From assembly GCF_900101815.1 (NCBI RefSeq), contig NZ_FNAO01000001.1, forward strand, positions 434,001 through 498,000: a stretch of DNA of 64,000 nt, read 5' to 3'. The notes under the pieces are model-generated. The model saw only the letters and a list, made by a program, of their open reading frames with translations. It did not search any database and had not been told where the DNA came from. Position numbers and translations under genes: made by a program. This stretch comes from Pricia antarctica. GTDB taxonomy: Bacteria > Bacteroidota > Bacteroidia > Flavobacteriales > Flavobacteriaceae. Shown here piece after piece: positions 16,879 through 60,968 of the stretch (the first letter of the stretch is position 1; each line of letters starts with the position of its first letter).

Positions 16879-17193
16879 TGTAAATGAATTCAATTGCATA
16901 GCGCAGATAAATCAAGAAAAAAATAAGAGTTTGATGAAGACCTATTCTTTCGGAAGGAAAATCACGGGTTTTTTGTTTATTTTTATGCTGTATTGTTAAA
17001 TAAACAATAGAAGTCATTCAGAGATATTGTTTGGAACCGAGAATATCGGCTTTTTAGGTCTGATGAAGTCATTTTTTAAGACCATAATAGGGCTATGGTT
17101 TTAAAAAAAAGAGATCTGGCCTTACATGTGATATTGGTTGGGAAAAGAAAAAGTCTAAATGAGTTCATAGTATAAACTTTGTTAACTAAAATT
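16879..17193 (+). other. Gene-free interval before the lactonase cluster
   Basis: AT-rich, with no credible reading frame on either strand. GAAGTCATT occurs twice (at about 17009 and 17064), and a short inverted repeat ACCATA/TATGGT lies at 17081-17099. The promoter of the 17.2-27 kb cluster should be here, but no convincing -33/-7 pair was found. Confidence 0.5.
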
Positions 17194-18345
17194 ATGGGAC
17201 ATAAACCTCTAAAAAACATCGTGTTGACTTTAATTACTGTAATCGGGCCTCTTTCCAATATCATGGGTCAGGTATCTACAGCCGAAGCGTTTAACCTTCT
17301 GATCGGCACTTATACCGAGCCCGGAAAGAGCGATGGTATCTATGTTTATAAATTCGATGGTAAAACAGGGGAATTTAGCTACCGTGCCGAAGCCACAGGT
17401 GTTAAAAATCCGTCTTTCCTGACGGCTTCCAAAGATGGCAAACAGGTGTATTCCGTTAGTGAGGTTGGTGAGGGGAAAGGATCGGTCAGTGCATTTTCCT
17501 TTGATCCCACCTCGGGAAAACTTGATTTTTTAAATAGTGCAAGTTCGGGCGGTGACGGACCGTGTTATGTTTCGGTGGACGATAAAAACAAGCTTGTTTT
17601 CGTGGGCAATTATAGTGGAGGAAGTTTGTCCGCCGTTCCAGTCAAGGCCGATGGTTCATTGGGGTCTGACATTCAATCCATTCAGCACAAAGGAAACAGT
17701 ATCCTCAAAAATCAAACGAAACCGCACGTTCATTCCACAGTTTTATCCCCCGATAACAAATATCTCTACGTGCCCGATCTTGGAACGGACAAGGTGAATA
17801 TTTATAATGTAGACCTTACTAAATCCTCCCCGCTGACAACGGCGGATCCCCCTTTCGTAAGCGTTGAGGCCGGCAACGGACCACGGCATTTCACCTTTCA
17901 TCCCAACGGGAAATTTGCTTACTTGATCCAGGAGATGACGGGAAATGTGACCGTTTTCGAGTATCATGACGGAAAATTACGGGCCAAACAATCGGTCACG
18001 TTGGCGCCCCAAGGTTATAATGGGCCAATAGATGCCGCCGACATACATATTTCGCCCGATGGCAAATTTCTTTACGGATCGCTACGGGGCAATATCGATG
18101 AGGTGGTTATTTATGCCATAAACAAGAACGGAAAATTGACCTATGCAGGCCGTCAATCCACCTTGGGCAAGAACCCCCGTAATTTCGCCATAGACCCCAC
18201 GGGAAACTTTCTGCTGGTCGCAAACGGAGGCAGTGACGAAATCGTTGTGTTCAAACGGAATCGCGAAACAGGACTGCTGATGCCTGCCGGAAAGACCATA
18301 AAGGTCGGCGCACCGGTATGCCTGAAATTTGTGCCGATAAAATGA
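17194..18345 (+). CDS. Exported lactonase-family protein (6-phosphogluconolactonase type beta-propeller)
   Basis: A 383-residue seven-bladed beta-propeller of the Pgl/YbhE lactonase family, which hydrolyses sugar lactones to aldonic acids. NLLIGTYTEP opens the first blade and the repeats VKNPSFLTASKDG, RHFTFHPNGKFAY and NPRNFAIDPTGNFL are diagnostic. The first 26 residues form a signal peptide ending near IMGQ, so the enzyme is periplasmic, unlike the cytosolic pathway enzyme. I used the ATG at 17194 rather than a TTG 15 bases upstream. It opens a run of exported proteins that includes a PQQ-dehydrogenase-like protein, whose products would be lactones. Confidence 0.85.
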   Translation: MGHKPLKNIVLTLITVIGPLSNIMGQVSTAEAFNLLIGTYTEPGKSDGIYVYKFDGKTGEFSYRAEATGVKNPSFLTASKDGKQVYSVSEVGEGKGSVSAFSFDPTSGKLDFLNSASSGGDGPCYVSVDDKNKLVFVGNYSGGSLSAVPVKADGSLGSDIQSIQHKGNSILKNQTKPHVHSTVLSPDNKYLYVPDLGTDKVNIYNVDLTKSSPLTTADPPFVSVEAGNGPRHFTFHPNGKFAYLIQEMTGNVTVFEYHDGKLRAKQSVTLAPQGYNGPIDAADIHISPDGKFLYGSLRGNIDEVVIYAINKNGKLTYAGRQSTLGKNPRNFAIDPTGNFLLVANGGSDEIVVFKRNRETGLLMPAGKTIKVGAPVCLKFVPIK

Positions 18346-18420
18346 CAGGTGCTGAATTCAGATCGATGGTCAAGGTGACCAGGTGGCATATCCTATTGTA
18401 AATTATTAAAACACGTAGTA

Positions 18421-19659
18421 ATGAAACGCAGGGAAATCATTAAGTGGGCCGCGGTAACACCGGCGGTAGGCGCAATCATTGGGAGTCTTGTCCCATTCCA
18501 GTCCGTATTCGCCGCCCCGGACGTAAAATTGGGACCGAAGCGAAATCTGATCAAGGAACTTGGCCTGCGCACCTTTATCAATGCCGCGGGAACCTACACC
18601 ACGATGACCGCTTCATTAATGAACGAAGAAGTAATGGAAGCCATTGACGATTCTTCCCGGGAGTTTATTATGTTGAACGAGGTGCAGGACAAGGTCGGGG
18701 AAAAAATAGCCCAAATGGTACATTCGGAAGCGGCCATGGTTACCGCAGGCGCCTTTTCGGCCCTGACCTTGGGCATGGCAGGAATACTTACCGGCACAGA
18801 CCAAGAAAAGATAAAACAACTCCCCCATCGTTTGGATGAGGCCGGGATCAAGTCTGAGGTAATCATTCAAAAAGCACACTTCGATGGTTATGAACATGCG
18901 CTGTCAAATACGGGAATTTCATTGGTTCCCGTAGAAACAGCCAATGATGTCGACAGAGCCGTAAACCAAAAGTCGGCATCGATGCACTTTTTGAACTGCA
19001 ATACCCTGGAAGGGAAAATAAAGCATGAAGAATGGCTTCAGTTGGCGAAAAAGCACAATCTACCGGCCACTATAGACATCGCCGCCGATGTTCCCCCGGT
19101 CTCCAATCTTTGGAAGTTCAACGATATGGGCTTTAGTTTTGTTGCCCTTTCGGGCGGGAAGGCGATATGTGGTCCTCAAAGTGCCGGCGTATTGATGGGT
19201 AAAAAAAATATTGTTGCGGCCGCCAGGCTCAATGATTCCCCAAATGGGCGTACCATTGGCCGCGGAATGAAGGTCAACAAAGAAGAAATGTTGGGTATGT
19301 ACGCCGCGTTGGATAGTTACCTAAAAAGGGACCATGATAAGGAGTGGAAAATGTGGGAAGATCGTGTTGCGGCAATCAAAGGTGCCGTTACGAAAGTTAA
19401 AGGCGTAGAGGTCACTGTTACCGTTCCGCCCATCGCCAATCACTCCCCGAAAATGAATATTAAGTGGGACAGGGAACAAACAAAAATTGTTCGCAGCGAA
19501 CTAGGGGATAGATTGCGCCAAGGAAACCCCTCGATCGAGGTAATTGCTTGGGGCGATGATGAAAACAGCATCGATCTTACGGTATTTATGTTGAAGCCGG
19601 GACAAGAAAAAATCGTAGGGAAACGTATTTTCAAGGAACTTTCGAAAGCATCTTCATAA
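18421..19659 (+). CDS. Tat-exported SelA-like PLP-dependent enzyme, copy 1
   Basis: A 412-residue fold-type I PLP enzyme related to SelA and to D-glucosaminate-6-phosphate ammonia-lyase (DgaE), not a true selenocysteine synthase. The PLP lysine is K247 in SGGKAICGPQ; INAAGTYT and DIAADVPPV are family motifs. The N-terminus is a twin-arginine leader (R3-R4, then WAAVTPAVGAIIG), implying folding with cofactor before export. A periplasmic location is unusual for such enzymes. It lies 75 bases after the lactonase. The paralogue at 21570 shares the same 16-base upstream word. Confidence 0.82.
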   Translation: MKRREIIKWAAVTPAVGAIIGSLVPFQSVFAAPDVKLGPKRNLIKELGLRTFINAAGTYTTMTASLMNEEVMEAIDDSSREFIMLNEVQDKVGEKIAQMVHSEAAMVTAGAFSALTLGMAGILTGTDQEKIKQLPHRLDEAGIKSEVIIQKAHFDGYEHALSNTGISLVPVETANDVDRAVNQKSASMHFLNCNTLEGKIKHEEWLQLAKKHNLPATIDIAADVPPVSNLWKFNDMGFSFVALSGGKAICGPQSAGVLMGKKNIVAAARLNDSPNGRTIGRGMKVNKEEMLGMYAALDSYLKRDHDKEWKMWEDRVAAIKGAVTKVKGVEVTVTVPPIANHSPKMNIKWDREQTKIVRSELGDRLRQGNPSIEVIAWGDDENSIDLTVFMLKPGQEKIVGKRIFKELSKASS

Positions 19660-19773
19660 TTTAAAAGTTCGAATATTAAGTCGATTATCTTTAACCGGAA
19701 TGTATAATAATACGATTTCAAAATAATGATCAGTAGTTTTATACTCTTTTTCAATGCTTCTTACGCCACAATA

Positions 19774-21531
19774 ATGTCGGGTAAAATTTGGTCCTTATTT
19801 ATATTTCCCTTTCTAGTTTGTATAAGCTTTTGTCGGTGTTCCCCAGAATTGCCTGCCGGCGACCCGGATAATGGCGGACTCTTTTTACCGGAAGGCTTTG
19901 ATGCCTTGGTCGTGGTCGATAGCCTAGAGGGACGCGCCAGGCACTTGGCCGTAAACCACAACGGCGATATCTATGTAAAGTTGCGGTTTCCCGATTCCAT
20001 AGGGGGCAACGCTGCCCTACGCGATACCGACAACGACGGCAAGGCCGATATTATAGAGACCTTCGGCGATTACCTCGACAAAAGCAGCTACGGAACGGCA
20101 ATGCGAATTCACAACGGCTATTTATACTACAGTTCCGTAACCCGCATCCTCCGTCAGAAATTGACCGGAAAATTGGTGCCGGACTCCGAAATGGAGCTGA
20201 TAGTGACCGACACACAGCCCCCAAGGCAACATGATACCAAACCTATAGCGTTCGATAAAAAGGGAAATTTGTATACCCCGTTCGGAGCACCTTCCGACGC
20301 CTGTCAAGAAGACGACAGGGTGTTCATGTCCCCCGGCATCGACCCCTGCCCTATCCTTGAACACCGTGCCGGCATATGGAAGTTCGATGCCAATAAAAAA
20401 GGACAGTTCCAAAGGGACGGGGAAAAATTCGCTACGGGCCTGAGAAGTGTCGTTGCTTTGGAATGGAACGACCAAGATGATAACCTGTTTACCCTTGCCC
20501 ATGGCAGGGACCATATATATAATACCTGGCCGGAAATATATACGGTATGGGAAGGTTCCGTATTACCTTCCGAAGTTTTTCTAAAGCTCAAGAAAGGTTC
20601 CGATGCGGGCTGGCCGTACCATTATTACAATCAGATAAAAGAAGATTATTTTCTGAGTCCGGAATACGGCGGGGACGGAAAGAAACAGGGCGAAAACGTA
20701 GATTCATTGGTAAAGCCATTGATCGGGTTTCCAGGGCATTTTGCCCCCAATGATCTTTTGTTTTATACGGGAGACCAATTTCCAGAGCATTATAAAAACG
20801 GCGCTTTTATGGCGTTTCACGGTTCTACAAGTAGTGCCCCCTATCCGCAGACAGGATATTTTATCGCCTTCGTGCCAATGGCTAAGGGAATGCCTTCCGG
20901 ACCTTGGGAGGTTTTTGCAGACGGTTTTGCAGGGGTAGATACCATAATCAATACCAGCGATGCCAAATATCGTCCGATGGGCCTTGCGATGGGGCCGGAT
21001 GGCTCGATATATATATCCGATACGGAAAAAGGTAAAATATGGAGGGTCATGTTCAAAGGGGATAAGGGAAAATTCGGCAAGGCGCAATTGGCGAAAATGG
21101 AAGACCGAAAAAAACAAGCATCGAATATAAAAACTCCCGATGAGGTAAAGGATATCGTGGCTACGGAAGAGGATGGCTTTTTTCCAAAAACGGGAAATAT
21201 GGCGGAAGGTGCAAAATTGTACAACATCCATTGCGCACTCTGCCATCAAAAAAACGGCCGGGGCAACGACCGCTTTCCACCTTTGAACTATTCCGATTGG
21301 GTCAATGGCGACAAGGAAAGGTTGACCGACGTGGTACTGAACGGACTCGAAGGCGAGATTAGGGTGCATGGCAGGTCGTACAACAATGTAATGCCCAAGC
21401 AAGACCATCTTAAGAACGAGGATATTGCACTCATTCTAACGTACATCAGACAGAACTTTGGCAATCGTTCAAACGGTATAGTTCCCGAAGAGGTGGCCAA
21501 AGTCAGGAAAGCGACCACCAAATCCCCATGA
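19774..21531 (+). CDS. PQQ sugar-dehydrogenase-like beta-propeller fused to cytochrome c, lipoprotein
   Basis: 585 residues: a lipoprotein-type leader (SFCRCS), a beta-propeller of the soluble glucose/sorbosone dehydrogenase type (residues about 40-420, with LRDTDNDGKAD, GLRSVVALEW, SDAGWPYHYY and GPDGSIYISD), a linker, and a C-terminal class I cytochrome c domain with CALCH at 487-491. Electrons from sugar oxidation would pass to the fused haem. The start at 19774 puts the leader at the N-terminus; the upstream ATG at 19726 adds 16 atypical residues. PQQ binding is inferred from the fold and not from a diagnostic residue set I can verify. Confidence 0.78.
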   Translation: MSGKIWSLFIFPFLVCISFCRCSPELPAGDPDNGGLFLPEGFDALVVVDSLEGRARHLAVNHNGDIYVKLRFPDSIGGNAALRDTDNDGKADIIETFGDYLDKSSYGTAMRIHNGYLYYSSVTRILRQKLTGKLVPDSEMELIVTDTQPPRQHDTKPIAFDKKGNLYTPFGAPSDACQEDDRVFMSPGIDPCPILEHRAGIWKFDANKKGQFQRDGEKFATGLRSVVALEWNDQDDNLFTLAHGRDHIYNTWPEIYTVWEGSVLPSEVFLKLKKGSDAGWPYHYYNQIKEDYFLSPEYGGDGKKQGENVDSLVKPLIGFPGHFAPNDLLFYTGDQFPEHYKNGAFMAFHGSTSSAPYPQTGYFIAFVPMAKGMPSGPWEVFADGFAGVDTIINTSDAKYRPMGLAMGPDGSIYISDTEKGKIWRVMFKGDKGKFGKAQLAKMEDRKKQASNIKTPDEVKDIVATEEDGFFPKTGNMAEGAKLYNIHCALCHQKNGRGNDRFPPLNYSDWVNGDKERLTDVVLNGLEGEIRVHGRSYNNVMPKQDHLKNEDIALILTYIRQNFGNRSNGIVPEEVAKVRKATTKSP

Positions 21532-21569
21532 TTGTAAATTATTGAACCTGAACGAATAAAGAGCAACAG

Positions 21570-22823
21570 ATGAAAACCGAAAGAAGATCGGCCATCAAGA
21601 AGATATTGGCCTCGACCACTGCGTTGGTCGGTCTTGGCCCTATGGCCATGGCGAAAAATAAAGAAGCGGAAACCACCCCGGTCGCTATCCCAAAAAAACA
21701 CGATTATTTTGAGGAACTGGGCATTACCCGTGTTATTAACGCCGGGGCCACCATGACGTTTCTATCGGGTTCATTAATGATGCCCGAGACCATGGAGGCC
21801 ATCAATGCAACGGCACACGATTTTGCCGATATGTACGAACTACAGGACAAGGTCGGGGCCAAATTGGCCGAAATGCTGCACTGTGAAGCGGCCATGGTCA
21901 CCTCTGGGGCGGCAGCCGCATTGGTACTGGGTACGGCGGGCATCATTACGGGTACCGATGCAGATAAGAGAAAGCAATTACCAAACTTTCCTGGACCACG
22001 CCCCGAGGTCATCATGCAAAAAAGCCATCGCTACGTTTTCGATCAGGCCATTACCACGACCGGTGCCAAGATCATAGAGGTGGAGGGCCCGGAGGAAATG
22101 GAAATGGCCATCAACAAGAATACGGTAATGGCGCTTTTCTTTAATGCAGCTGTATCATGGTTTGGCACAGAGGATACCATAGACCATGAAGCGTTTGTTG
22201 GCATTTGTAAGCGGAATAATATTCCTTCCTTCATCGATGCCGCAGCGGATGTTCCCCCAGTGGAAAACCTCTTTAAATACCAAAAAATGGGCTTTGACCT
22301 AGTTACCTTTTCCGGTGGCAAGATGATCCGCGGTCCCCAGAGTACGGGACTGCTTTTCGGGAGAAAAGATCTTATAGAGGCCGCCAAACTGAACAATAGC
22401 CCTCACGAGGCCCCTTTAGGCCGCCCGATGAAAGTGAACAAGGAGGAAATGTTCGGTATGTACGCCGCGCTCAAATCCTATCTGGAACGCGACCATAAGA
22501 AAGAGTGGCAAGATTGGCTTGCCCGTGCCGAGAACATCAGATCGGAAATTATGGGCATTCAAAGTGTAAAGGGAAAGATCCATGTACCTGACGGACCGGC
22601 AAATGTGGTACCCAGCCTGCACGTGACCTGGGATTCAAAACAGGTCAGGACAACCCCCAAGCAAGTCCATGAGGCCCTCAAAAGTGGAACGCCCAGTATT
22701 TTTTGCGCCCTTGGGGAAAAAGACGGTGAGGCACTTTTGAGCGTCGGCGTGGTATTGCTGAGACCGGAGCAGGTCGCCATCGTAGCCGATCGGCTTAAGG
22801 CCGTTTTACGGAAGGCGGTCTGA
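21570..22823 (+). CDS. Tat-exported SelA-like PLP-dependent enzyme, copy 2
   Basis: A 417-residue paralogue of the protein at 18421, with the same framework: RVINAGATMT, DAAADVPPV and the PLP lysine K251 in SGGKMIRGPQ. A twin-arginine leader (R5-R6 followed by SAIKK and a hydrophobic run) indicates folded export. Family members act as ammonia-lyases/dehydratases on amino acids or amino-sugar acids. Keeping two copies with an oxidoreductase gene between them suggests two related substrates, stereoisomers or a heteromer. It lies 38 bases after the dehydrogenase gene. Confidence 0.82.
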   Translation: MKTERRSAIKKILASTTALVGLGPMAMAKNKEAETTPVAIPKKHDYFEELGITRVINAGATMTFLSGSLMMPETMEAINATAHDFADMYELQDKVGAKLAEMLHCEAAMVTSGAAAALVLGTAGIITGTDADKRKQLPNFPGPRPEVIMQKSHRYVFDQAITTTGAKIIEVEGPEEMEMAINKNTVMALFFNAAVSWFGTEDTIDHEAFVGICKRNNIPSFIDAAADVPPVENLFKYQKMGFDLVTFSGGKMIRGPQSTGLLFGRKDLIEAAKLNNSPHEAPLGRPMKVNKEEMFGMYAALKSYLERDHKKEWQDWLARAENIRSEIMGIQSVKGKIHVPDGPANVVPSLHVTWDSKQVRTTPKQVHEALKSGTPSIFCALGEKDGEALLSVGVVLLRPEQVAIVADRLKAVLRKAV

Positions 22824-22895
22824 TAAAGACATGCGCCCTTTTTTTAGGGATGGTTTGCTATTTAACCTATTTATATAACCAGAAACAACCTAAAT

Positions 22896-24140
22896 ATGAT
22901 ACATTTTCATCTAATACTCTTTCTGACCCTAACGCTATTTTCAAACAAAGTAGCTGCCCAAGAATTCGACATCGTTATCAAGGGCGGCCATGTCATCGAT
23001 GCCAAGAATAACATCGATACTGCAATGGACGTGGCTATCAAGGACGGCAAGATTGCCGGGGTGGCAAAGAACATCGACGGAAAAAAAGGGGTACAAGTGG
23101 TCGATGCCAAAGGGCTTTACGTCACTCCTGGCCTTATCGATATCCATGGGCATGTTTTTGCCGGTACCGAGCCTCGCCACGCCTACAGCAATGGTTTTAG
23201 TGCCCTTGCCCCCGACGGTTTTACCTTTCGGGTAGGGGTAACTACGATAGTGGACTGTGGCGGTTCAGGTTGGAAATCGTTTCCGACCTTCAAGGAAAAC
23301 GTCATCGACAGGTCGAAGACCCGGGTGCTCGCCTTTTTGAACATTGTAGGGGAAGGAATGCGCGGCGGCACTTATGAGCAGGATACCCATGATATGGATT
23401 CAAAATTAAGCGCTAGTGTAGCCAGCCAATATCCACAAGATATTGTCGGTTTCAAGGTGGCCCATTACAATGGCCCTGAATGGATCCCGGTAGACCGGGC
23501 CGTAGCCGCAGGAAATAGGTCCGATCTTCCGGTCATCATCGATTTTGGCGGCAGCAATCCCCCGTTGTCCATCGAAGCGCTTTTTATGAAACACCTTCGG
23601 CCAGGGGATATCTATACGCATGCTTTTGGGCAGCTAGATAGTAGGGAAGCGATTGTGGACTTAAAAACGAAAGAAGTAAAACCATTCGTAATCGAGGCCC
23701 AAAAAAAGGGCATTATTTTCGATGTGGGATATGGGGGCATCAGCTTTGCCTACTCCCAGGCCATTCCCGCGGTGAAAGAAGGTTTTTATCCCAACACTAT
23801 CAGCACAGATCTGCATACGGGCAGCATGAACAATGCCATGAAGGACATGCTCAACGTTATGTCCAAATTTATGTTGATGGGTATGGATCTCAAAGAGGTG
23901 ATTGCGGCCAGCACATGGCATCCCGCAAAAGCCATTAAAAGAGAAAATCTAGGGAATCTTTCGGTAGGTGCGCCCGCCGATGTAACCCTGCTTGCGGTAA
24001 GGGAGGGCAACTTCGGTTTTTTCGATTACACCGGTTATAAAATGGAGGGGGATAAAAAACTGGAGTGCGAACTCACCATACGCGACGGAAAGATCGTGTA
24101 CGACCTGAACGGCATTGCAGCACCCATCGTAGTCAGGTAA
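22896..24140 (+). CDS. Exported amidohydrolase/deacetylase of the EF_0837-like (dihydroorotase-related) group
   Basis: A 414-residue metal-dependent amidohydrolase with a Sec signal peptide ending near VAAQ. H84 and H86 in DIHGH are the first metal ligands; VVGFKVAHYN supplies the probable carboxylated lysine, THAFG a histidine, and STDLHTG the later aspartate region. Related proteins annotated as dihydroorotase-like or deacetylase sit beside SelA-like genes in Enterococcus and Gammaproteobacteria, and this pairing is repeated here. It may remove an acyl group from an N-acylated amino-sugar acid or open a cyclic amide; the substrate is not readable from sequence. Confidence 0.82.
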   Translation: MIHFHLILFLTLTLFSNKVAAQEFDIVIKGGHVIDAKNNIDTAMDVAIKDGKIAGVAKNIDGKKGVQVVDAKGLYVTPGLIDIHGHVFAGTEPRHAYSNGFSALAPDGFTFRVGVTTIVDCGGSGWKSFPTFKENVIDRSKTRVLAFLNIVGEGMRGGTYEQDTHDMDSKLSASVASQYPQDIVGFKVAHYNGPEWIPVDRAVAAGNRSDLPVIIDFGGSNPPLSIEALFMKHLRPGDIYTHAFGQLDSREAIVDLKTKEVKPFVIEAQKKGIIFDVGYGGISFAYSQAIPAVKEGFYPNTISTDLHTGSMNNAMKDMLNVMSKFMLMGMDLKEVIAASTWHPAKAIKRENLGNLSVGAPADVTLLAVREGNFGFFDYTGYKMEGDKKLECELTIRDGKIVYDLNGIAAPIVVR

Positions 24141-24161
24141 TCGCCATAAAATCCAAGGACC

Positions 24162-24192
24162 TTAAAAAGCCAACATTCGATATATGCTTCCA
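24162..24192 (+). repeat. Intergenic motif, copy 1
   Basis: A 31-base word (TTAAAAAG-CCA-C-TTC-ATATAT core) that recurs at 25818-25849 with about 26 of 32 positions equal and one gap. Both copies lie in gaps upstream of genes of this cluster (RidA here). It could be a regulatory site or a small dispersed repeat. Confidence 0.5.
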
Positions 24193-24320
24193 TTGATAAA
24201 CTAAAATCCAAAAATAAATTGGTCATCATGGCTAAAAGGCAGGAGTTACTTACATTTATAGCTTATAGAACGAAATTTTATAATTGAATCAGAAATAGGT
24301 AATCAAAAAAAACACTAAAA

Positions 24321-24797
24321 ATGGAAAACAAGACAACTAGAAGGGCTTCTTTTAAAAAAATGGGAATGGGCTTGGCAGCTATTTTCGGTATTAGTAGCGT
24401 AAATGCCATGGGGAAAGAACCGGTTAAAGCAACAAAAGAAGTGGTCGGGGATATAACGTACGATCAGGAGATACCTTTATTTTCTGGAGGTGTCAAACAC
24501 GGCAATACCTTATACATTGCCGGAAAGGGAGCTCATGTAGAACCCTATGAAATTAAGGCGCATACCGAAATCGTACTGCAAGAACTTCAAAAAGAGCTTG
24601 AAAAACACGGCAGCTCCATGGAAAAAGTACTAAAAGTCAATGTATATCTTGCCGATTTGGGCGACTATAAGGGAATGAACGAGGTATTCAGGGGCCGTTT
24701 TGGCAAAAACCCTCCCGTTAGGACTACGGTAGCCACCTATGGAGGGGTACCTGGAGATTCTTTGGTGGAAATGGATTGTATAGCCTCGTTGGACTAA
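24321..24797 (+). CDS. Tat-exported RidA-family enamine/imine deaminase
   Basis: 158 residues. The RidA (YjgF/YER057c/UK114) core starts near residue 45. The catalytic arginine is R134 in PPVRTTVATY, and VLKVNVYLADL is the typical central segment. RidA hydrolyses reactive enamines/imines released by PLP-dependent dehydratases. The N-terminus is a twin-arginine leader (R7-R8 followed by ASFKK and a hydrophobic run ending near NAMG), which is unusual because RidA is classically cytosolic. Its place behind two exported SelA-like PLP enzymes gives it an obvious job. Confidence 0.88.
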   Translation: MENKTTRRASFKKMGMGLAAIFGISSVNAMGKEPVKATKEVVGDITYDQEIPLFSGGVKHGNTLYIAGKGAHVEPYEIKAHTEIVLQELQKELEKHGSSMEKVLKVNVYLADLGDYKGMNEVFRGRFGKNPPVRTTVATYGGVPGDSLVEMDCIASLD

Positions 24798-24834
24798 TAC
24801 GTAAAATGGTATTAATCCGATATATTCCATCATA

Positions 24835-25767
24835 ATGAAGCACACGCTTAATTATATAGTATTGTCCGCCATTTGTTTTTTTCTGACCGATGGACTTTGC
24901 TCACAAACGATTCCCAAGGAAGAACTTATATTTCTTACTTCCGAATGGAAGGGGGAACGCTTCGATGACGGTCGTCCCAAATTGCCCGACGAAATTTTGG
25001 AAAGGGCAAAGAAAATCGGAATCGACGATGCATGGACCGTGTTGGAAAACCAAGGCTATACCAACCAGTTCGAAGGCAATTGGAAAATGTTGCACGACGA
25101 TGTACCCGTTGTAGGAAGAGCTCTTACGGCACTCTTCATGCCCAGTCGCCCCGATGTGGAGAAAAGCATCAAGGAAAGGGGCATTAGTTCCCAAGGGAGA
25201 AAAGGCAACACCAACTCTTGGCCCATAGAAGAGCTTACCCAGGGCGATGTATACGTGGCCGACAGTTTCGGCAAAATCGACGCGGGTACCCTTATGGGCG
25301 CCACCTTGGCGACCTCAATTTTTAGTAAATCAGGTAACGGTGTGGTTTTTAACGGCAGTGCAAGAGATCTTGAGAGCATCAGTCAAATCGAGGGGTTCAA
25401 TGCTTTCGTACGTGATTTTCATCCTTCATTTCTCGAAGGGGAGGTGCTGATGGGGCTGAATACCCCTATCCGTATCGGAGGGGCAATGGTATTACCAGGT
25501 GATCTGGTGCTGGCCAAAAGGGAGGGAGTCCTGTTTATTCCCGCGCATCTGGCAGAGCAGGTAGTCGGTACGGCGGAGTTCGTTGCCCTCAAAGATGTTT
25601 TCGGTTTCGAAATGGTCAAATCTAATCAATATACCACGGGCGAAATAGATAGCCAGTGGGCCGAAAAAATCAAGAAAGATTTTGTCAAATGGCTCGAAAA
25701 GCATCCTGAACTTGGCAAAATGACCAGTGAACAAGTGGATAACATTTTGAGCAAGCGGACGTGGTAA
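24835..25767 (+). CDS. Exported RraA-family protein (HMG/CHA-aldolase-like)
   Basis: 310 residues with a Sec signal peptide ending near LCSQ. Residues about 100-260 are the RraA fold: GDVYVADSFGKIDAGTLMG, NGSARDLESI (arginine/aspartate pair used in pyruvate-aldolase relatives for substrate and metal) and VLPGDLVLAKREGVLFIP. In most relatives the last motif reads AD-DGV; here Lys replaces Asp. Members are divalent-metal aldolases/decarboxylases of 4-hydroxy-4-methyl-2-oxoglutarate type or RNase E inhibitors; the latter role is excluded by export. About 100 N-terminal residues precede the core. It lies 37 bases after ridA. Confidence 0.8.
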   Translation: MKHTLNYIVLSAICFFLTDGLCSQTIPKEELIFLTSEWKGERFDDGRPKLPDEILERAKKIGIDDAWTVLENQGYTNQFEGNWKMLHDDVPVVGRALTALFMPSRPDVEKSIKERGISSQGRKGNTNSWPIEELTQGDVYVADSFGKIDAGTLMGATLATSIFSKSGNGVVFNGSARDLESISQIEGFNAFVRDFHPSFLEGEVLMGLNTPIRIGGAMVLPGDLVLAKREGVLFIPAHLAEQVVGTAEFVALKDVFGFEMVKSNQYTTGEIDSQWAEKIKKDFVKWLEKHPELGKMTSEQVDNILSKRTW

Positions 25768-25817
25768 TATCCCGAAGATCAGGCGTATACACTGTAAAGT
25801 TCTTGCAAAAGCTTTTT

Positions 25818-25849
25818 TTAAAAAGACCAGCGTTCAATATATCTTTCCA
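25818..25849 (+). repeat. Intergenic motif, copy 2
   Basis: Second copy of the word at 24162, 24 bases before the start of the BASS transporter. The two copies differ mainly by A/G and C/T exchanges. On the minus strand both would read as a similar short peptide (YIE-W-F), so a remnant of a dispersed element is also possible. Confidence 0.5.
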
Positions 25850-25872
25850 ACCCAGACCAAACAAGAAATACC

Positions 25873-26979
25873 ATGAAAAAAGTCAACCTATATTCCCTGA
25901 GCCTAGGACTCGCAGCCTTACTTTTACTCGTTATCATTGGCATGATCTTTACGGGAAATATTGCTAGTGCCGGGCCATTTATCTTGGTGTTTTTTGCCGT
26001 ATTGGCCGTCGGTTTTAGCGGATACAGATCCCTGAACGGCCTGGTATTTACCACTATGATCTTTGCCGGGGTATCGGCAGCCTTGTACTACCCCCAACTT
26101 TTCACTTATATCGGGGATTTTAAATTGACCATTCTGATCATTCCGCTAATCCAGATTATCATGTTCGGTATGGGCACCCAAATGGGGCTAAAAGATTTCG
26201 CCGCGGTCTTCAAGACCCCTAGGGGCGTTGTGATCGGTGTTGCCGCACAGCTGCTGATCATGCCCCTGGTCGGTTTTGCGTTGGCCAAGATGAGCAATTT
26301 TCCGCCCGAGATAGCGGCCGGCATCGTATTGATCGGATGTTCGCCCAGCGGGGTCGCCTCGAACGTCATGGCCTATCTGGCCAATGCGAATTTGGCACTC
26401 TCCATTACCATAACCTCCATTGCCACGTTATTGGCACCCTTCCTGACCCCCCTGTTGATGAAGTTGTTGGCCGGGGAATTCGTGGAAATCGATGTGCTCG
26501 ATATGATGTGGAGCATTACAAAGATGATCATTATTCCCATCGGGGCGGGATTGTTGTTCAACCGGCTCTTTAAGACCAAATGGCTCGACAAGGCCATGCC
26601 TTTAGTGTCCATGTTGGCCATTGGCATTATTATTACCATTATCACGGCCGCGGGCAGGGACAGTCTTCTGGAGATCGGGGGGATTTTGATGCTATTGGTC
26701 CTCGTACACAATGTATTCGGCTATACCCTTGGGTATTGGTTCGCCCGTCTTTTCAAGATGCCCGAACAGGATGCACGCACCATCGCCATCGAGGTGGGTA
26801 TGCAGAACGGCGGACTTGCCTCGGGCATTGCTAATTCCTTAGGGAAGATCGCCACCATGGGCCTAGCACCGGCGGTTTTCGGACCGTTAATGAACGTTAC
26901 GGGGTCGATTCTGGCTTCCTACTGGCATAAAAGGCCGCCTCTTTCCACGGCAAAAGCTAAGACGGCCGATACTTTATAG
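25873..26979 (+). CDS. BASS-family (bile acid:sodium symporter type) transporter
   Basis: A 368-residue inner-membrane protein with ten or so hydrophobic spans. Family signatures are GMGTQMGLKDF, GCSPSGVASNVMAYLANANLALS and IEVGMQNGGLA, the last two containing sodium-site residues. BASS members carry organic anions, including pyruvate and other 2-keto acids, with sodium. As the only transporter of the 17-27 kb cluster, it is the natural carrier for the end product of the exported enzymes; this is inference. It is followed by 256 bases without a gene before susC. Confidence 0.88.
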   Translation: MKKVNLYSLSLGLAALLLLVIIGMIFTGNIASAGPFILVFFAVLAVGFSGYRSLNGLVFTTMIFAGVSAALYYPQLFTYIGDFKLTILIIPLIQIIMFGMGTQMGLKDFAAVFKTPRGVVIGVAAQLLIMPLVGFALAKMSNFPPEIAAGIVLIGCSPSGVASNVMAYLANANLALSITITSIATLLAPFLTPLLMKLLAGEFVEIDVLDMMWSITKMIIIPIGAGLLFNRLFKTKWLDKAMPLVSMLAIGIIITIITAAGRDSLLEIGGILMLLVLVHNVFGYTLGYWFARLFKMPEQDARTIAIEVGMQNGGLASGIANSLGKIATMGLAPAVFGPLMNVTGSILASYWHKRPPLSTAKAKTADTL

Positions 26980-27235: not shown

Positions 27236-30200
27236 ATGAAGCAACACTACGAGAATGCAAGGTCACCTTGGTGTCTCCTAAAAATCGATTTGAAACTGAA
27301 ATTGACCGTCTTTTCCCTAATCTTTTCACTGTTTCAGGCGCAGGCCAATTCATACGCCAATAAGACCGTATTACGCATACCTCTCAAAAACGCTAGTTTT
27401 GAGAAGAAGATACCCAACGTGATATCCATTCCTTTTGACAAGAACACTAGGTTACAGCAACAGATTTCGGGAACCGTTTCCGATGCCACCGGGGTTCCTT
27501 TGGCGGGCGCTAACATCTTAGAAAAAGGCACTACCAATGGTACCCAGACCGATTTTGACGGTAATTTTACCCTCGAAGTGGGCGACGACGCCATTTTGGT
27601 CATTTCCTATATCGGTTTTACCACTAAAGAAGTGAGCGTTGACGGCCAATCGAATATCTCGGTAAGTTTGGACGAAAATGCCGCAGGTCTGGATGAAGTG
27701 GTCGTGGTCGGATATGGAACGCAAAGTAGGGCAAAGGTCACCGGGGCAATTAGTACGGTTCCCACCGATCAAATTGCGCAAAGGCCCGTAACCAACACTG
27801 CAAATGCCTTGCAGGGCCAAGTTCCTGGTCTAACCGTCTTTAATTCGGGAGGAGCACCGGGAGTTGAAGACGTTAAAATACGCATTCGAGGGGTTGGTAC
27901 CCTTAACAATTCCAACCCTTTAGTTTTGGTAGATGGTATTGAGCAGTCTCTTGGCACCGTTGAACCTCAGAATATAGAATCAATTTCAGTGTTAAAAGAT
28001 GCCGCTTCCGCCGCTATTTACGGATCGAGAGCTGCAAACGGAGTTATTCTTGTGACTACAAAACGTGGAGCTTCAACTGGGGTAAAGTTATCCTACAATG
28101 CTTTATTTGGTGTTCAGCACCCTAGTTTCTTTCCGGAAAAAGCGGATGATGAGTCATGGATGAGGCTGGAAAATACGGCTCAGGTAAATGCGGGTGGCAC
28201 TCCCACCTATTCCGAGGAATATATTTCAAATGTACTTGCCGGCACCAAGCCCTTAGAATTCCCATTTGCCAATTGGGAAGAAGGGATTTTCAGAAATGGG
28301 GCTCTAATGAACCAACACAGTTTTTCAATATCGGCAGGTAGTGAAATCGGAAAAATATTTACGTCTGTAAATTACAACGATACAGACGGTGTCATTAAAA
28401 ACTTTAATAATAAAAGAACTACCGTGCTTGTCAATGCAGACTTGTATGCCAACGATAAACTTACTTTTAAGGTAGGGCTTATGTACCGGAACGGGAATTT
28501 TAGCGGACCAGGACATGCCATAAATTCTTCAGGAATAGCGGGACAACAGATTGTTCAGGCCCTTCTTCATATGAATAGAAATGTCGTGATGGAATACCCT
28601 GATGGAACCTACGATTTAATTTCAGGACAGTGGAATGCCGATGCGATGGCGACCGAGGGAGAAACGAATAGGATTTCAAATGATGTTGTGGCACAGGGAG
28701 GAATTGATTATTCAATCAGTGATGCACTGACGCTTAGAGGCAATGTTACCTATAAATCGAATAATCAAGGTACCGATACCTTTATGAATAGTTTGGCAGG
28801 TATGAAAAATTACGTTACCGGTGAGCCCGTAACCGTATCGGGGTGGTTTGCGACAAATAAGTTGACCGAGGCAACCTTTACTGAAAAGGAATTAAGCCAA
28901 AGATTATATCTGGATTATGAGAAGGATTTTGGTTCCCACGACCTTGGTGGGCTCTTGGGATACGAAGAAATCCATTACAATAACAAAATCGTTTCGGCTT
29001 CTCGGGAAGGTTTTTTTAACAATGACCTAAGAGATTTAGACGCAGGAGGAGTCGATAATCAACAGATAAGTGGACATCGGGAAGAATGGCGGCTTCGCTC
29101 CGTGTTTGGAAGGCTTAATTATTCCTTTGATGACAGATATTTGCTTCAAGCCAATTTAAGAATTGATGGTTCCTCCCGGTTTGGGGACGGTAATAGATAT
29201 GGTTATTTTCCTTCGGTCTCTGCCGGGTGGAATATAACCAATGAGTCGTTCATGGAAAACGTTTCTGATGGTGCAGTGCTCAGTAACCTTAAATTAAGGG
29301 CATCTTGGGGGCAGTTGGGGAATCAGGATATCGGACTCAATAAGTTTAGAAGCACATACAACCTGAACCAAAACTATCAATTTGCTGGGAACCCCGTTTC
29401 CGGGTCAGCTATAACCCAGGCTGGAAATCCAAATATTACCTGGGAAACGGCAACAATAACCAATATTGGACTAGATGCTTCTTTTTTGAATGACCGATTA
29501 TCATTTGTAGCTGAGTACTTTTGGAAGTATACCGATGATATCTTATTAGAATTACCCATTTCAAGCACCATTGGCGTAGACGCACCTGTTCAAAATGCGG
29601 CAGCAGTTTCAAATAATGGGTATGAACTTAGTCTAAGTTATAACAGTGTTTATAAACCCGATAACGGCTTCAATTACTCCATAGGTGTTAACTTTTCCGA
29701 TGTAATCAACAAGATTGAAGATTTGAAGGGTGCAGGGCCTTACTTCAACGATGGTTTTACGGTTTGGCAAGAGGGGTATTCTATTAACACACTTAGAGGA
29801 TTGGATTCACCGGGTCTGTACCGTACCCAAGCCGATTTAGATCAATACCCGGTACGTTTAAGTTCCAGTGCAACAATTGGCGATATCATTTACAAAGACG
29901 TGAACGGCGACGGGGTCATATCACAATCCCTTGCTCCCGGAGGAGATCAGATTATCATTGGCAATGAGGATCCTAGATATGAATTTGGTATAAGGGCCAG
30001 TGCTTCCTTTAAAGGTTTTGACCTATCCATGTTTTGGCAGGGTGTGGGAAAACAATATCATACTCTAGATGGTGCATTGGTGGAAGGACCTGCTTATCAG
30101 AACTTCATACCCAGTGAAATGACCGCAAACGCTTATGACCCGGTTCAAAATCCTGATGGAACATGGCCTAGGGCAATAGCTGGTGGTAATTGGAATATTG

Positions 30201-30430
30201 TAAAATCGAATTTCTGGTTAGTCGACACTAAATATATCAGGTTAAAAAACTTTCAAGTGGGCTATACTATAGATCAGAAAGTGTTTTCTAACTTTAGAAT
30301 TTATGTTTCCGGAGAAAACATGGTGACATTTACCCCCCAGAATCTTTTTGATCCTGAAACCCCAAGAGGTAGAAGTCAGTTCTTTCCACAAACAAAGACT
30401 ATGAGTTTAGGTTTAAACATCGAATTTTAA
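27236..30430 (+). CDS. SusC/RagA-type TonB-linked outer-membrane transporter
   Basis: A 1064-residue beta-barrel protein: leader (about 20-40), a carboxypeptidase-D-regulatory-like domain (about 78-145, SGTVSDATG), a TonB-box-like DEVVVVGYG, plug domain (about 160-280) and a 22-strand barrel ending in the aromatic-terminated LGLNIEF. It imports oligosaccharides with its SusD partner. Ten bases separate it from susD. The barrel coding is AT-richer and less codon-biased than the flanking cluster genes, as is common for exchanged SusC genes. Confidence 0.95.
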   Translation: MKQHYENARSPWCLLKIDLKLKLTVFSLIFSLFQAQANSYANKTVLRIPLKNASFEKKIPNVISIPFDKNTRLQQQISGTVSDATGVPLAGANILEKGTTNGTQTDFDGNFTLEVGDDAILVISYIGFTTKEVSVDGQSNISVSLDENAAGLDEVVVVGYGTQSRAKVTGAISTVPTDQIAQRPVTNTANALQGQVPGLTVFNSGGAPGVEDVKIRIRGVGTLNNSNPLVLVDGIEQSLGTVEPQNIESISVLKDAASAAIYGSRAANGVILVTTKRGASTGVKLSYNALFGVQHPSFFPEKADDESWMRLENTAQVNAGGTPTYSEEYISNVLAGTKPLEFPFANWEEGIFRNGALMNQHSFSISAGSEIGKIFTSVNYNDTDGVIKNFNNKRTTVLVNADLYANDKLTFKVGLMYRNGNFSGPGHAINSSGIAGQQIVQALLHMNRNVVMEYPDGTYDLISGQWNADAMATEGETNRISNDVVAQGGIDYSISDALTLRGNVTYKSNNQGTDTFMNSLAGMKNYVTGEPVTVSGWFATNKLTEATFTEKELSQRLYLDYEKDFGSHDLGGLLGYEEIHYNNKIVSASREGFFNNDLRDLDAGGVDNQQISGHREEWRLRSVFGRLNYSFDDRYLLQANLRIDGSSRFGDGNRYGYFPSVSAGWNITNESFMENVSDGAVLSNLKLRASWGQLGNQDIGLNKFRSTYNLNQNYQFAGNPVSGSAITQAGNPNITWETATITNIGLDASFLNDRLSFVAEYFWKYTDDILLELPISSTIGVDAPVQNAAAVSNNGYELSLSYNSVYKPDNGFNYSIGVNFSDVINKIEDLKGAGPYFNDGFTVWQEGYSINTLRGLDSPGLYRTQADLDQYPVRLSSSATIGDIIYKDVNGDGVISQSLAPGGDQIIIGNEDPRYEFGIRASASFKGFDLSMFWQGVGKQYHTLDGALVEGPAYQNFIPSEMTANAYDPVQNPDGTWPRAIAGGNWNIVKSNFWLVDTKYIRLKNFQVGYTIDQKVFSNFRIYVSGENMVTFTPQNLFDPETPRGRSQFFPQTKTMSLGLNIEF

Positions 30431-30439
30431 AAAAACATT

Positions 30440-31999
30440 ATGAAAAGATATACATATATAAAAGGTTTATTCTTCTTCGTTGTTACTGTCTCGTTAACGG
30501 GATGTAGTGATAGTCTGGATATAGCCCCAACGGGCGCGGTTTCTGACGACACCTATTGGAATACCGTAAGGGATGCAGAGTTAGCGGTTAATGCCGTATA
30601 TGCCGAAATGGATGGTACACAAATGGTAATTGCGTTGGATGGCGTTACCGATATCGGATATCACAAGTATTCTAATGTTCCTACTTTTAATGATGTCCGT
30701 TTTGGTGAAATCGATCCCTCCAACGCTACGATTACCGGCATTTGGAACCGGTACTATATCGGTATCAGAAGGGCAAACGATGTTGTTGCAAATATTGATA
30801 AAATAGTAGATAGTGATCAAGCTAAAATTGCAAGAATAACTGCGGAAGCCAGATTTCTCAGGGCGTATTACTATGCGCAACTTTCTAGTTTATGGTGCAA
30901 TGTACCTTTAATAACAGAACTTGTTGATATAAATGATAATCGTCCTACAAATTCCAAAGAAGAGATAGTCGCCTTTGTGATGAATGAACTGAATGATATT
31001 ATTAATTCCAATGCTTTGCCAGTAAGCTATTCAGGAGATGACATAGGCAGGGTCACTCAGGGAGCCGCCTTAACCTTAAAAGCGAGAGTGGCGATCCGAA
31101 ATAACGATTTTCAGGTGGCCCGCGATGCTTCCAAGGCTGTGATGGATTTGGGTGTTTACAGCCTCTACCCTAATTATCCAGAGTTGTTCCAAGTCGCAGG
31201 TCAAAATTCCAGTGAGGTAATTTTTGACAGACAATTCGCAGTCGGTGGTGATACGTATAATGCATTTGGTTATTCTGCAGCTTCCTTGGGAGGTAGTTCG
31301 GGAGTAGAGCCCATGAACGGTCTTTTTGAAAAGTATGAGTACACCGGCCCTGTGAATCCAAACAATCCATTTGAAAATAAAGACCCAAGATGGAATTATG
31401 TTACTTATTATACCGGGCAGCCGGCAGGAAATGATATCTATAACTCTTGGCCAGATAGTCCTACCGCGGATAAGATCAGTAGTACTGAATTTGCCACGAC
31501 AAATGGTTACAATTTAAAGAAGTGGGTGGACTTTGAGTCTTTTTCTGCTAATTCAAATCTTGGTGACATAAATATGATTTTGATGCGCTATGCTGATGTT
31601 TTGCTGATGTATGCAGAATCTAAAATAGAGTTGAACGAGATCGATCAATCGGTTTATGATGCCATAAATGCCATAAGACAAAGACCAACCGTTGATATGC
31701 CTGCAATTACCGAAGGAAAGTCGCAGGCGGAACTAAGGCAAATCGTCAGGGATGAAAGAGCCAGGGAATTGGCCTTCGAAGGCCTGCGGTTGTTTGATAT
31801 CAATCGTTGGAAAATAGGTGAAGTAAAGGCCGGGGCGGTCAAAGGAATGTATTACATTGACGATTCTGGTCAATGGACTCTTATAGATAAGGGAAGGGTC
31901 GCTACTTTCAATGAAAATAGAGACTATTGCTGGCCTGTTCCCCAAGAAGAAATGGATATTAATGATATAATTACCCAGAATCCGGGGTATGTAAAATAA
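30440..31999 (+). CDS. SusD/RagB-family glycan-binding lipoprotein
   Basis: A 519-residue outer-membrane lipoprotein: lipobox LTGC with C22, then the SusD helical TPR-like framework (RRANDVVANIDKI, AEARFLRAYYYAQL, ERARELAFEGLRLFDINRW) and the C-terminal NPGY segment typical of the family. It binds the glycan and caps the SusC barrel. No glycoside hydrolase or polysaccharide lyase is encoded nearby, so the substrate is probably small or already cleaved. Confidence 0.95.
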   Translation: MKRYTYIKGLFFFVVTVSLTGCSDSLDIAPTGAVSDDTYWNTVRDAELAVNAVYAEMDGTQMVIALDGVTDIGYHKYSNVPTFNDVRFGEIDPSNATITGIWNRYYIGIRRANDVVANIDKIVDSDQAKIARITAEARFLRAYYYAQLSSLWCNVPLITELVDINDNRPTNSKEEIVAFVMNELNDIINSNALPVSYSGDDIGRVTQGAALTLKARVAIRNNDFQVARDASKAVMDLGVYSLYPNYPELFQVAGQNSSEVIFDRQFAVGGDTYNAFGYSAASLGGSSGVEPMNGLFEKYEYTGPVNPNNPFENKDPRWNYVTYYTGQPAGNDIYNSWPDSPTADKISSTEFATTNGYNLKKWVDFESFSANSNLGDINMILMRYADVLLMYAESKIELNEIDQSVYDAINAIRQRPTVDMPAITEGKSQAELRQIVRDERARELAFEGLRLFDINRWKIGEVKAGAVKGMYYIDDSGQWTLIDKGRVATFNENRDYCWPVPQEEMDINDIITQNPGYVK

Positions 32000-33406: not shown

Positions 33407-34177
33407 ATGAAAAAATCATTAAAAACTATCAGTACCCATCTGTCCATTTTCTTCATTGTAGCGGCCTATAGCCTTTGCAACGCCCAACACGAAGCTTTTG
33501 AGTTCGAGTTCGGCACATCAACTACGTTAGAAAACTCATTATCTGGCAATACAGACAACGACTCTACGCTCAAATGGATCAATGTCAACACGGTTAAAAA
33601 AGGATGGACCGTCAACGACGATGGAGTCTTAGTTAATTTGGGACTTCCTATAGGTGTTGTACGTTCGGAAAAACAATATGAAAATTTCATTCTGCACGTA
33701 GAGTGGATGCATATGGAGGCGGGCGGAAACTCGGGGGTTTTCGCATGGAGCGGCGCCAATCCCCCGGCGGACTCCCCTTTGCCTGACGGTGTGGAAATCC
33801 AGATGCTCGAACTCGATTGGGTGAACATCAACGCCAAGAATGGTGTGCAGCAACCTATAGCCTATGTTCATGGCGAGGTCTGGGGTGTTGGCGGTGTTGT
33901 GACCGATCCAGATAATCCCAGGGGGGAGCGAAGTAAATCCATCGAAAACCGCGCCAAGGGAAAAGGAGTATGGAATACCTACGACGTAGTGGCCGTAGAT
34001 GGCGTCATCAAACTATCGGTCAATGGGAAATTTGTAAACGGTATTTCGAAATCGACACAAAAGAAAGGATATTTCTGCCTTGAATCCGAGGGAGCGGAAA
34101 TCCATTTTAGGAATTTTAAGATTATTGAACTGCCTCCGGGTGTAACTTCCGAAGAGCAAACGGCGCCTAAGTTATAA
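33407..34177 (+). CDS. DUF1080 protein (3-keto-disaccharide hydrolase family)
   Basis: A 256-residue secreted protein with signal peptide ending near LCNAQ and a concanavalin-like jelly-roll of family DUF1080 (PF06439), seen in [22 protein letters not shown], split here as HVEWMHME and GGNSGVF, plus VEIQMLE and [10 protein letters not shown]. Characterised members cleave 3-keto-glucosides. The upstream MocA-type oxidoreductase could make that 3-keto group. It is followed 42 bases later by an amidohydrolase. Confidence 0.85.
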
Positions 34178-39819: not shown

Positions 39820-39985
39820 CTACAAATCAAATTTTATCCCCTGCGCTCCTGCAACCGACGAGCGACCGGAGGAGCGAGAGGATTGCATCCTTAAAAACTA
39901 AATTGTATGCCTTGTGCCCCTGCAACCGACGAGCGACCAGAGGAGCGAGAGGATTGCACCTTTACAGTTTGAATGTTATTCCTTG
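39820..39985 (-). repeat. 71-bp tandem repeat containing duplicated gene-end of the aldehyde dehydrogenase
   Basis: Two units (39820-39890 and 39891-39961) align without gaps over 71 bases with high identity, and a third, partial copy is the last ~24 bases of the aldehyde dehydrogenase gene. Stop codons fall at 39820, 39891 and 39962, exactly 71 apart. On the minus strand the tails read AQGIKFDL, AQGIQFSF and AQGITFKL before the stop. Between the tails is an almost invariant ~42-base GC-rich block (TCGCTC repeated). Confidence 0.8.
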
Positions 39986-45314: not shown

Positions 45315-45407
45315 AGGCAAGTTCCGCTGTGAGGTATGCCTGTCGACGGATAGGCTTGTAACTGATGCCTTATCCAATCCCCATTTATTTCCCTACTTTT
45401 GAGGGTT

Positions 45408-60488: not shown

Positions 60489-60504
60489 CCAATCTATATT
60501 ACAA

Positions 60505-60963: not shown

Positions 60964-60968
60964 GCCCA

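Follow-up and report, generated by a model that had tools for sequence, protein, structure and literature searches.

A candidate extracytoplasmic oxidative pathway for N-acylated amino sugars in Pricia antarctica

Described systems and the exported gene run

Oxidised amino sugars are broken down in Pseudoalteromonas prydzensis by the Ong pathway of oxidative chitin use, in which GlcNAc1A (N-acetylglucosaminate) is deacetylated and then deaminated to 2-keto-3-deoxygluconate (KDG) without phosphorylation, and in which a RidA protein is required for growth on GlcNAc1A (PMC9537276). The deacetylase of that pathway, OngB, is a D-aminoacylase-type enzyme with a Cys/His/His site (PMC12017989). We describe here a run of genes for putative exported proteins in a 64,000-nt window of the Pricia antarctica genome, the window being the whole stretch of DNA that was analysed and the source of the coordinates given below. 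We think it rather probable that its products make up an oxidative pathway located outside the cytoplasm and acting on an N-acylated amino sugar, in which every reaction is predicted from protein families and gene neighbourhoods.

The run resembles the Ong system in its predicted amidohydrolase-superfamily deacetylation, in predicted deamination by an enzyme dependent on pyridoxal 5'-phosphate (PLP), in the presence of RidA within the cluster (here at 24321-24797) and in TonB-dependent uptake. In contrast to the D-aminoacylase-type Ong deacetylase, the amidohydrolase of the run (AMH) is an NF006689 protein with HxH, Lys, Asp, His and Asp; OngC is a fold-type III PLP enzyme, whereas the model of the corresponding protein SELA2 matches SelA-type folds; and the Ong enzymes are predicted to be cytoplasmic, whereas those of the run carry putative export leaders as judged by eye or by regular expression. 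Furthermore, KdgK follows in the Ong pathway but the cluster described here holds no KDG kinase (the adjoining PfkB gene is on the other strand and scores best as a fructokinase), C1 oxidation is carried out on the polymer by a lytic polysaccharide monooxygenase in the former and would be carried out by a dehydrogenase in the latter, and no lactonase, RraA or BASS protein appears in the available passages of PMC9537276 and PMC12017989. By membership tests the run is neither an Ong system nor DGL nor SelA; its chemistry is Ong-like, apparently moved outside the cytoplasm, and its novelty lies in the compartment, in the enzyme families and in the added dehydrogenase, lactonase and RraA. A sequence-only reading of the window had known of no described pathway of this form, a claim that has to be corrected in that the Ong pathway shares the core chemistry.

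Three other systems are related in part. The SelA-like enzymes of the run share with D-glucosaminate-6-phosphate ammonia-lyase (DGL; PMC9529869) the fold (for the SELA2 model, template modelling (TM) score by target 0.88 and 25% identity) and the SGxK lysine that binds PLP, but differ from it in their predicted export, in the unphosphorylated substrate that is expected and in the loss of the histidine pair and the arginine cluster of DGL. The route predicted for N-acetylglucosamine (GlcNAc) in Natrarchaeobius draws on chitinase clusters that also encode glucose dehydrogenase and proteins of the DgaE-like and RutC families (PMC12343721); unlike the present run it is archaeal, its authors propose phosphorylation before elimination, and the available passages of this predictive study mention neither RraA nor BASS. 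Periplasmic sugar chemistry with PF06439 proteins, one of which is encoded downstream in the present run, has also been proposed, Bacteroidota included, for the 3-keto-glycoside and NagX glucosamine routes (PMC9007349), but these proceed by C3 oxidation and glycoside cleavage, or by acetylation of glucosamine through NagX, and no periplasmic deamination is described in the passages available. No exported pathway of the present form was found in the titles and abstract beginnings among the literature matches listed, in which subscription journals are thinly covered.

If the proposed pathway is correct, entire pathways of exported enzymes, Tat-exported SelA-type PLP ammonia-lyases among them, would catabolise sugars to small keto acids outside the cytoplasm. 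Alongside the breakdown of oxidised amino sugars known from marine Gammaproteobacteria, other phyla would then have an enzyme solution of their own in a different compartment, with a bearing on the turnover of chitin and amino sugars. A testable function would thereby be provided for exported SelA-like, RidA, RraA, NF006689 and lactonase proteins, some of which carry misleading names such as selenium transferase, dihydroorotase or RNase regulator.

Gene order, export leaders and linkage

The sequence-only reading had singled out seven leader-bearing enzymes running in one direction into a BASS carrier, and the order, strand and families of these genes were confirmed (Table 1). All eight are present in the list of open reading frames (ORFs), whose coordinates give successive gaps from the lactonase to BASS of 75, 66, 38, 72, 180, 37 and 105 bases. 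After a gap of 256 bases the run continues on the same strand with SusC, SusD and three further exported proteins up to position 35296, with 9 bases between SusC and SusD and 6 bases between SusD and the oxidoreductase. Predicted promoters at the shuffled mean (38 in the scan versus 35.5, standard deviation 6.5) and predicted terminators slightly above it (32 versus 24.0, standard deviation 5.4) did not help to define operon limits.

Signal leaders were judged by eye from the N-termini. Twin-arginine leaders were recognized in SELA1 (MKRREIIK), SELA2 (ERRSAIKK) and RidA (TRRASFKK), and Sec-type leaders in the lactonase, AMH and RraA; that of the dehydrogenase is weak and of the lipoprotein or Sec type, provided that an internal ATG near 19774 serves as its start codon. 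The 4.85-Mb host genome encodes TatC, the printed N-termini of relatives in the 20 regions presented below display the same leader types, and a twin-arginine-like motif, as defined by a broad regular expression, occurs within the first 40 residues in 72 of the 74 exported SelA rows aligned. These leaders suggest that the enzymes are located outside the cytoplasm.

In the proposed pathway, a glycan or glycoside would reach the periplasm through SusC/D, the cytochrome-linked quinoprotein-type dehydrogenase would oxidise C1 to give a lactone, the lactonase would open this lactone to an N-acyl-aldosaminate, and AMH would remove the acyl group. Elimination of water by a SelA-like PLP enzyme exported through Tat would then give an enamine or imine, whose hydrolysis by RidA would yield a 2-keto-3-deoxy acid and ammonia. 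Cleavage of the acid by RraA to pyruvate and an aldehyde may follow, and the BASS carrier would import the keto acid, cleaved or whole. GlcNAc is our best guess for the sugar concerned, N-acetylgalactosamine (GalNAc) or another N-acyl hexosamine being possible.

The gene set was found to recur across Bacteroidota. SelA searches at E ≤ 1e-20 in 149 and in 392 genomes matched 9 genomes each, the host included. Every listed SelA hit other than that of the window was fetched, giving 20 regions, at least four of them short, which are partly non-independent because they were drawn from 16 genomes and which include a paralogue locus of the host. AMH is present in 18 of these regions, RidA in 16, the dehydrogenase in 15, a second exported Rid-type protein (RidA2) in 12, a lactonase (PF10282 or SGL) in 11, and RraA and BASS in 10 each. 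When only same-strand genes no more than 8 kb away are considered, the counts are 18 for AMH, 16 for RidA, 13 for the dehydrogenase, 12 for RidA2, 10 for RraA, 10 for BASS and 8 for the lactonase.

Among the 392 genomes, 9 carry SelA, 13 carry AMH and 25 carry RraA (the latter two at E ≤ 1e-30). Rare co-occurrence, which would have spoken against the sequence-only reading, was not what we observed: all 9 SelA genomes carry both AMH and RraA (hypergeometric probabilities of 1.3e-15 and 3.7e-12, respectively, relatedness being ignored), and by their coordinates AMH lies near a SelA gene in all 9. RraA is near SelA in 5 of them (the host, G032, G270, G314 and G442). In the four genomes with AMH only, which belong to a single genus (L069-L072), a PF10282 lactonase adjoins AMH.

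Table 1. Genes of the run and the adjoining PfkB gene in the P. antarctica window, with bit scores against the models named
Feature	Position	Strand	Evidence
Exported lactonase, 7-bladed propeller	17179..18345	+	PF10282 386.7 bits; Sec-type leader by eye; likely true start ATG 17194
SELA1, Tat-type SelA/DgaE-like PLP enzyme	18421..19659	+	PF03841 27.3 bits; TIGR01437 162.8 bits (below cut-off); 7lc0 match; SGGK lysine kept
Quinoprotein-type sugar dehydrogenase propeller with cytochrome c	19726..21531	+	GSDH 29.5 bits; Cytochrom_C 38.5 bits
SELA2, Tat-type SelA/DgaE-like PLP enzyme, candidate amino-sugar-acid ammonia-lyase	21570..22823	+	TIGR01437 190.6 bits (below cut-off); 7lc0 match
AMH, exported NF006689 metallohydrolase, candidate N-deacylase	22896..24140	+	454.8 bits versus cut-off 371
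Tat-type RidA, candidate enamine/imine hydrolase	24321..24797	+	PF01042 63.6 bits
Exported RraA-like protein, candidate 2-keto-3-deoxy acid aldolase	24835..25767	+	PF03737 65.1 bits
BASS/PanS-like inner-membrane carrier, candidate keto-acid importer	25873..26979	+	PF01758 137.1 bits
SusC/RagA TonB-dependent outer-membrane transporter	27236..30430	+	TIGR04056 878 bits
SusD-like outer-membrane lipoprotein	30440..31999	+	PF07980 154.3 bits
Tat-type Gfo/Idh/MocA oxidoreductase	32006..33304	+	PF01408 50.9 bits; leader by eye
Exported 3-keto-disaccharide hydrolase family protein	33407..34177	+	PF06439 93.3 bits
Amidohydro_2 protein, hydrophobic N-terminus	34220..35296	+	PF04909 58.1 bits
PfkB	35293-36234	opposite to the run	Highest score from a fructokinase model, 192.3 (cut-off 450); KDG kinase models at most 77.0 (cut-off 400)

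The SelA-like enzymes and their partners

SELA1 and SELA2 both reach the PF03841 gathering score, and the closest relatives of SELA2 are 85% (in a genome of the same genus) and 81% (a Pricia antarctica copy) identical to it. In an alignment of 74 exported SelA rows to DGL (7lc0), from which rows of 330 residues or fewer were excluded, the SGxK PLP lysine is conserved in all 74. This lysine is named Lys-217 in the text of PMC9529869 but falls at 213 in the numbering that fits the other residues given there; the roles of the DGL residues, including that of the position-226 arginine near the carboxylate, are taken from the same source. At position 226, 40 of the exported rows have R and 29 have K. 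His162 and His163 are never kept together (His162 alone occurs in 2 rows and His163 alone in 1), and the phosphate arginines Arg301, Arg332 and Arg346 are never all kept (one of the three occurs in 5 rows); SELA1 and SELA2 have neither histidine and none of these arginines. An active site devoid of the full phosphate-arginine cluster, as the sequence-only reading had anticipated, is thus a feature of all exported rows. Because the phosphate arginines and histidines of DGL are lost, an unphosphorylated substrate is the simple reading, and a phosphorylated one is held unlikely. It is to be noted that DGL with the H163A mutation retains activity but lets its product go in the enamine form (PMC9529869); therefore an exported enzyme that lacks this histidine would plausibly need RidA.

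The selenium function suggested by the name SelA (L-seryl-tRNA(Sec) selenium transferase) was rejected, as the equivalog cut-off of TIGR00474 (267.9 bits) was reached by neither protein, SELA2 scoring 50.1 bits and SELA1 being unlisted. The SELA2 model has a predicted local distance difference test (pLDDT) score of 89.5, and its top fold matches are 8t7j (Cap15) and 7lc0 (DGL), with TM scores by target of 0.86-0.88. One of the SelA-like enzymes could thus be O2- and PLP-dependent in the manner of Cap15 and yield a product other than a 2-keto-3-deoxy acid, as would be consistent with a Cap15 fold match as good as that of DGL and with the occurrence of the two exported paralogues in sister clades. 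We regard this as very unlikely, given that nearby RidA, RraA or BASS genes suit a keto-acid product and that, in a tree of 81 SelA rows, the exported proteins form a clade of 75 rows (one duplicate; support 100/98) from which the DGL, Cap15, Rhizobium and haloarchaeal rows are excluded, the tree being midpoint-rooted and subject to long-branch warnings. A third SelA-like clade (7 tree rows, one of them a duplicate) is represented at the paralogue locus of the host genome (L066, C29 84500-104000), together with two AMH genes, a dehydrogenase, a CBM9-like protein and RidA. Two further SelA-like genes were observed: a short ORF of 226 residues (L065, 4559-5239), perhaps a broken paralogue and excluded from the alignment by its length, and a Rhizobium plasmid gene (L047, 8995-10191) whose product keeps the DGL histidine pair and two of the three arginines, adjoins RidA and ABC-transporter genes, and is a nearer relative of DGL.

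The dehydrogenase exceeds the PF07995 gathering score (29.5 versus 25 bits) and a profile search led to quinoprotein sugar dehydrogenases. With its weak structural model, the best Foldseek matches are 6jt5 and 6i1q, that is, fungal pyranose and bacterial sugar dehydrogenases dependent on pyrroloquinoline quinone (PQQ). AMH belongs to NF006689, also called cog3964, and differs from the family members 2ogj and 8je0 in its predicted export. In an alignment of 48 AMH rows (rows below 330 residues excluded), HxH, the beta-6 His and the beta-8 Asp are invariant and the Lys is present in 47, one row having Arg. The presumed active-site Arg of RidA is found in 38 of 38 rows (rows below 120 residues excluded), the window protein among them, and the latter also keeps the presumed active-site Glu. 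RidA2, a PF14588/PF01042 protein encoded at L005 (2666-3250) and in relatives, has Ala in place of this Arg in 14 of 14 rows. RraA passes the PF03737 gathering score of 24.5 bits and its RD motif is kept in 24 of 25 rows, the window included (rows below 200 residues excluded). The BASS protein meets the PF01758 gathering score but falls short of TIGR00841 (228.7 versus a cut-off of 326.3) and of the PanS model (223.1 versus 400).

Exchanged steps between loci and the fate of the keto acid

The strongest evidence on the chemistry is the exchange of individual steps between loci. A SelA relative occurs in 237 plasmid records, from which five regions were examined. An Acidobacteriota plasmid, that of Granulicella tundricola, was found to carry, in one direction, genes for a carboxypeptidase-regulatory-like protein (probably TonB-type), RraA, SelA, RidA, a second SelA-like protein, AMH, a lactonase and a BBE flavoenzyme, followed in the same direction by a hypothetical protein and a beta-galactosidase that we label GH35. 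Twin-arginine-type leaders are seen there on both SelA-like proteins, RidA and the lactonase, and Sec-type leaders on RraA and AMH; the flavoenzyme has none as annotated. Over 479 aligned columns, this flavoenzyme shares 256 residues (53%) with N-acetyl-D-hexosamine oxidase 7zzk. The N-acetyl-D-hexosamine oxidase of Ralstonia solanacearum converts GlcNAc to the lactone by oxidation at C1 (PMC9299179) and, judging by the shared name, would be the enzyme of 7zzk. Plasmid searches at E ≤ 1e-60 for further relatives of this oxidase or of AMH returned Granulicella only.

The deacylation step may be exchanged in Halomontanus, where SelA lies beside an FAA hydrolase and a D-aminoacylase-type protein, whose first matches are D-aminoacylases followed by PpOngB, with GH20 within the same 19-kb stretch. 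The Rhizobium region contains only RidA and ABC-transporter genes of note. From locus to locus the lactonase is of the PF10282 or SGL type and the carrier of the BASS, MFS, TRAP or nucleoside-symporter type. A possible swap of the oxidation step was also observed at L034 (9740-13394), where a SELA2 relative adjoins a protein that shares 42% of its residues with a PQQ dehydrogenase of PF01011.

An alternative reading would take the substrates to be N-acyl-D-amino acids or acyl esters of hydroxy acids and the PLP enzymes to be deaminases of the D-serine/D-threonine type. Cog3964 relatives reportedly hydrolyse acetyl-(R)-mandelate. OngC deaminates D-serine and D-threonine as well (PMC9537276). 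The presence of the lactonase, the sugar-dehydrogenase-type protein and SusC/D, together with the HexNAc-oxidase relative and GH35 in the Granulicella locus, argues against this alternative, which we consider unlikely.

RraA outside loci with SelA or AMH was surveyed in six regions holding seven of the 42 RraA places listed, three regions coming from the host genome and three from two other genomes. In five of the six, RraA has as its neighbour a protein of the MR/MLE type (enolase superfamily) that bears a Tat-type leader (on the opposite strand in L075), and the sixth contains a PQQ dehydrogenase. At the host locus L073, RraA is 85-87% and BASS 90% identical to the window proteins, and a PQQ dehydrogenase and a lactonase are also present. 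Tat-type MR/MLE beside exported RraA was noted at L073, L074 and L078 (host) and at L079, with PQQ dehydrogenases in L073 and L078. The MR/MLE-RraA loci are likely the neutral-sugar counterpart of the present run, and from these step swaps the keto-acid-forming enzyme therefore seems to be the part that changes. As a tentative and rather doubtful extension, one may envisage a modular 'periplasmic Entner-Doudoroff' route in Bacteroidota and on at least one Acidobacteriota plasmid, in which an aldose would be converted through a lactone to a 2-keto-3-deoxy acid that exported RraA would cleave outside the inner membrane. Which enzyme forms the keto acid would depend on the sugar: for N-acyl amino sugars, a SelA-like PLP ammonia-lyase exported through Tat and accompanied by deacylase and RidA; for neutral sugars, an enolase-superfamily dehydratase, likewise Tat-exported. 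Only small keto acids and ammonia would need to enter the cell.

Besides the equal Cap15 match, several observations weigh against the amino-sugar-acid pathway. The scores of SELA1 and SELA2 (124.1/134.9 and 162.8/190.6 bits) remain below the cut-offs of both the NCBIfam DgaE and selA_rel models (385.3 bits for TIGR01437), the dehydrogenase model is poor (pLDDT 66.8), and no PqqE match above the cut-off was obtained in the host genome, PQQ being possibly supplied from outside the cell. At beta-5, AMH of the window has Asp where 2ogj and 8je0 have His; 45 of the 48 rows share this Asp and the other 3 have Glu. No family of hexosaminidases or chitinases was recognized among the 13 genes of the run, and the single GH20 gene found lies elsewhere. 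Linkage is looser at 29 Bacteroidota loci located by SELA2 peptide patterns, several on short contigs: AMH and RidA accompany SELA2 in 17 each, RraA in 13, the dehydrogenase in 9, BASS in 7 and the lactonase in 5. At four Pedobacter loci (L030, L035, L036 and L039) SELA2 is directly followed by BASS with no RidA, AMH or RraA nearby. Among the three haloarchaeal plasmid regions, D-aminoacylase and GH20 occur in that of Halomontanus and are both missing from the other two; the Haladaptatus region contains PIG-L, mannonate dehydratase and an FAA hydrolase, and in that of Halosolutus a hydroxyacid dehydrogenase and an ABC transporter are found.

The weakest step is the extracellular aldol cleavage by RraA, which is uncertain because RraA lies away from SelA in four of the nine SelA genomes (G345, G391, G428 and G530) and because the Asp of the GDLLATS motif of 3noj, presumably with a metal role, is Ala in the window protein. 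Among the 25 RraA rows this position is Asp in 17, Ser in 4, Ala in 3 (the window, L015 and L049) and Gly in 1. In a variant of the pathway to which we give a sizeable minority of our belief, BASS would take up the intact 2-keto-3-deoxy acid, its breakdown would follow in the cytoplasm, and RraA would have another role. The loss of the Asp in the window clade and the lack of linkage just described suit this variant, as do the absence of RraA from 10 of the 20 regions, the Pedobacter loci where SelA adjoins BASS without RraA, the MFS, TRAP or nucleoside-symporter-type carriers at other loci, and a KdgK-like gene with an Eda-like gene, recognized by eye, at another locus of the host genome. Conservation of the RD motif and the position of RraA beside MR/MLE in five of the six SelA-free regions examined are, on the other hand, as expected of an aldolase. 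We conclude that the gene set, the likely export and the chemical order put forward by the sequence-only reading are upheld by the conserved neighbourhoods and step swaps, its external RraA cleavage being the part that stands weakly.

Two other groups of genes were noticed by eye in the window. Ornithine-cyclodeaminase-like, proline-racemase-like and aldehyde-dehydrogenase-like genes at 45399-47421 and 39962-41515 perhaps serve hydroxyproline use. A hydroxyproline link was rejected for the Pedobacter loci: the recurrent neighbours of SELA2-BASS there (c13-c17) had the sizes of proline-pathway genes but encode ATP-grasp, transglutaminase, Alpha-E and proteasome-like proteins. Finally, at positions 58102-62264, TRAP transporter genes come after a gene that resembles glucuronate isomerase.

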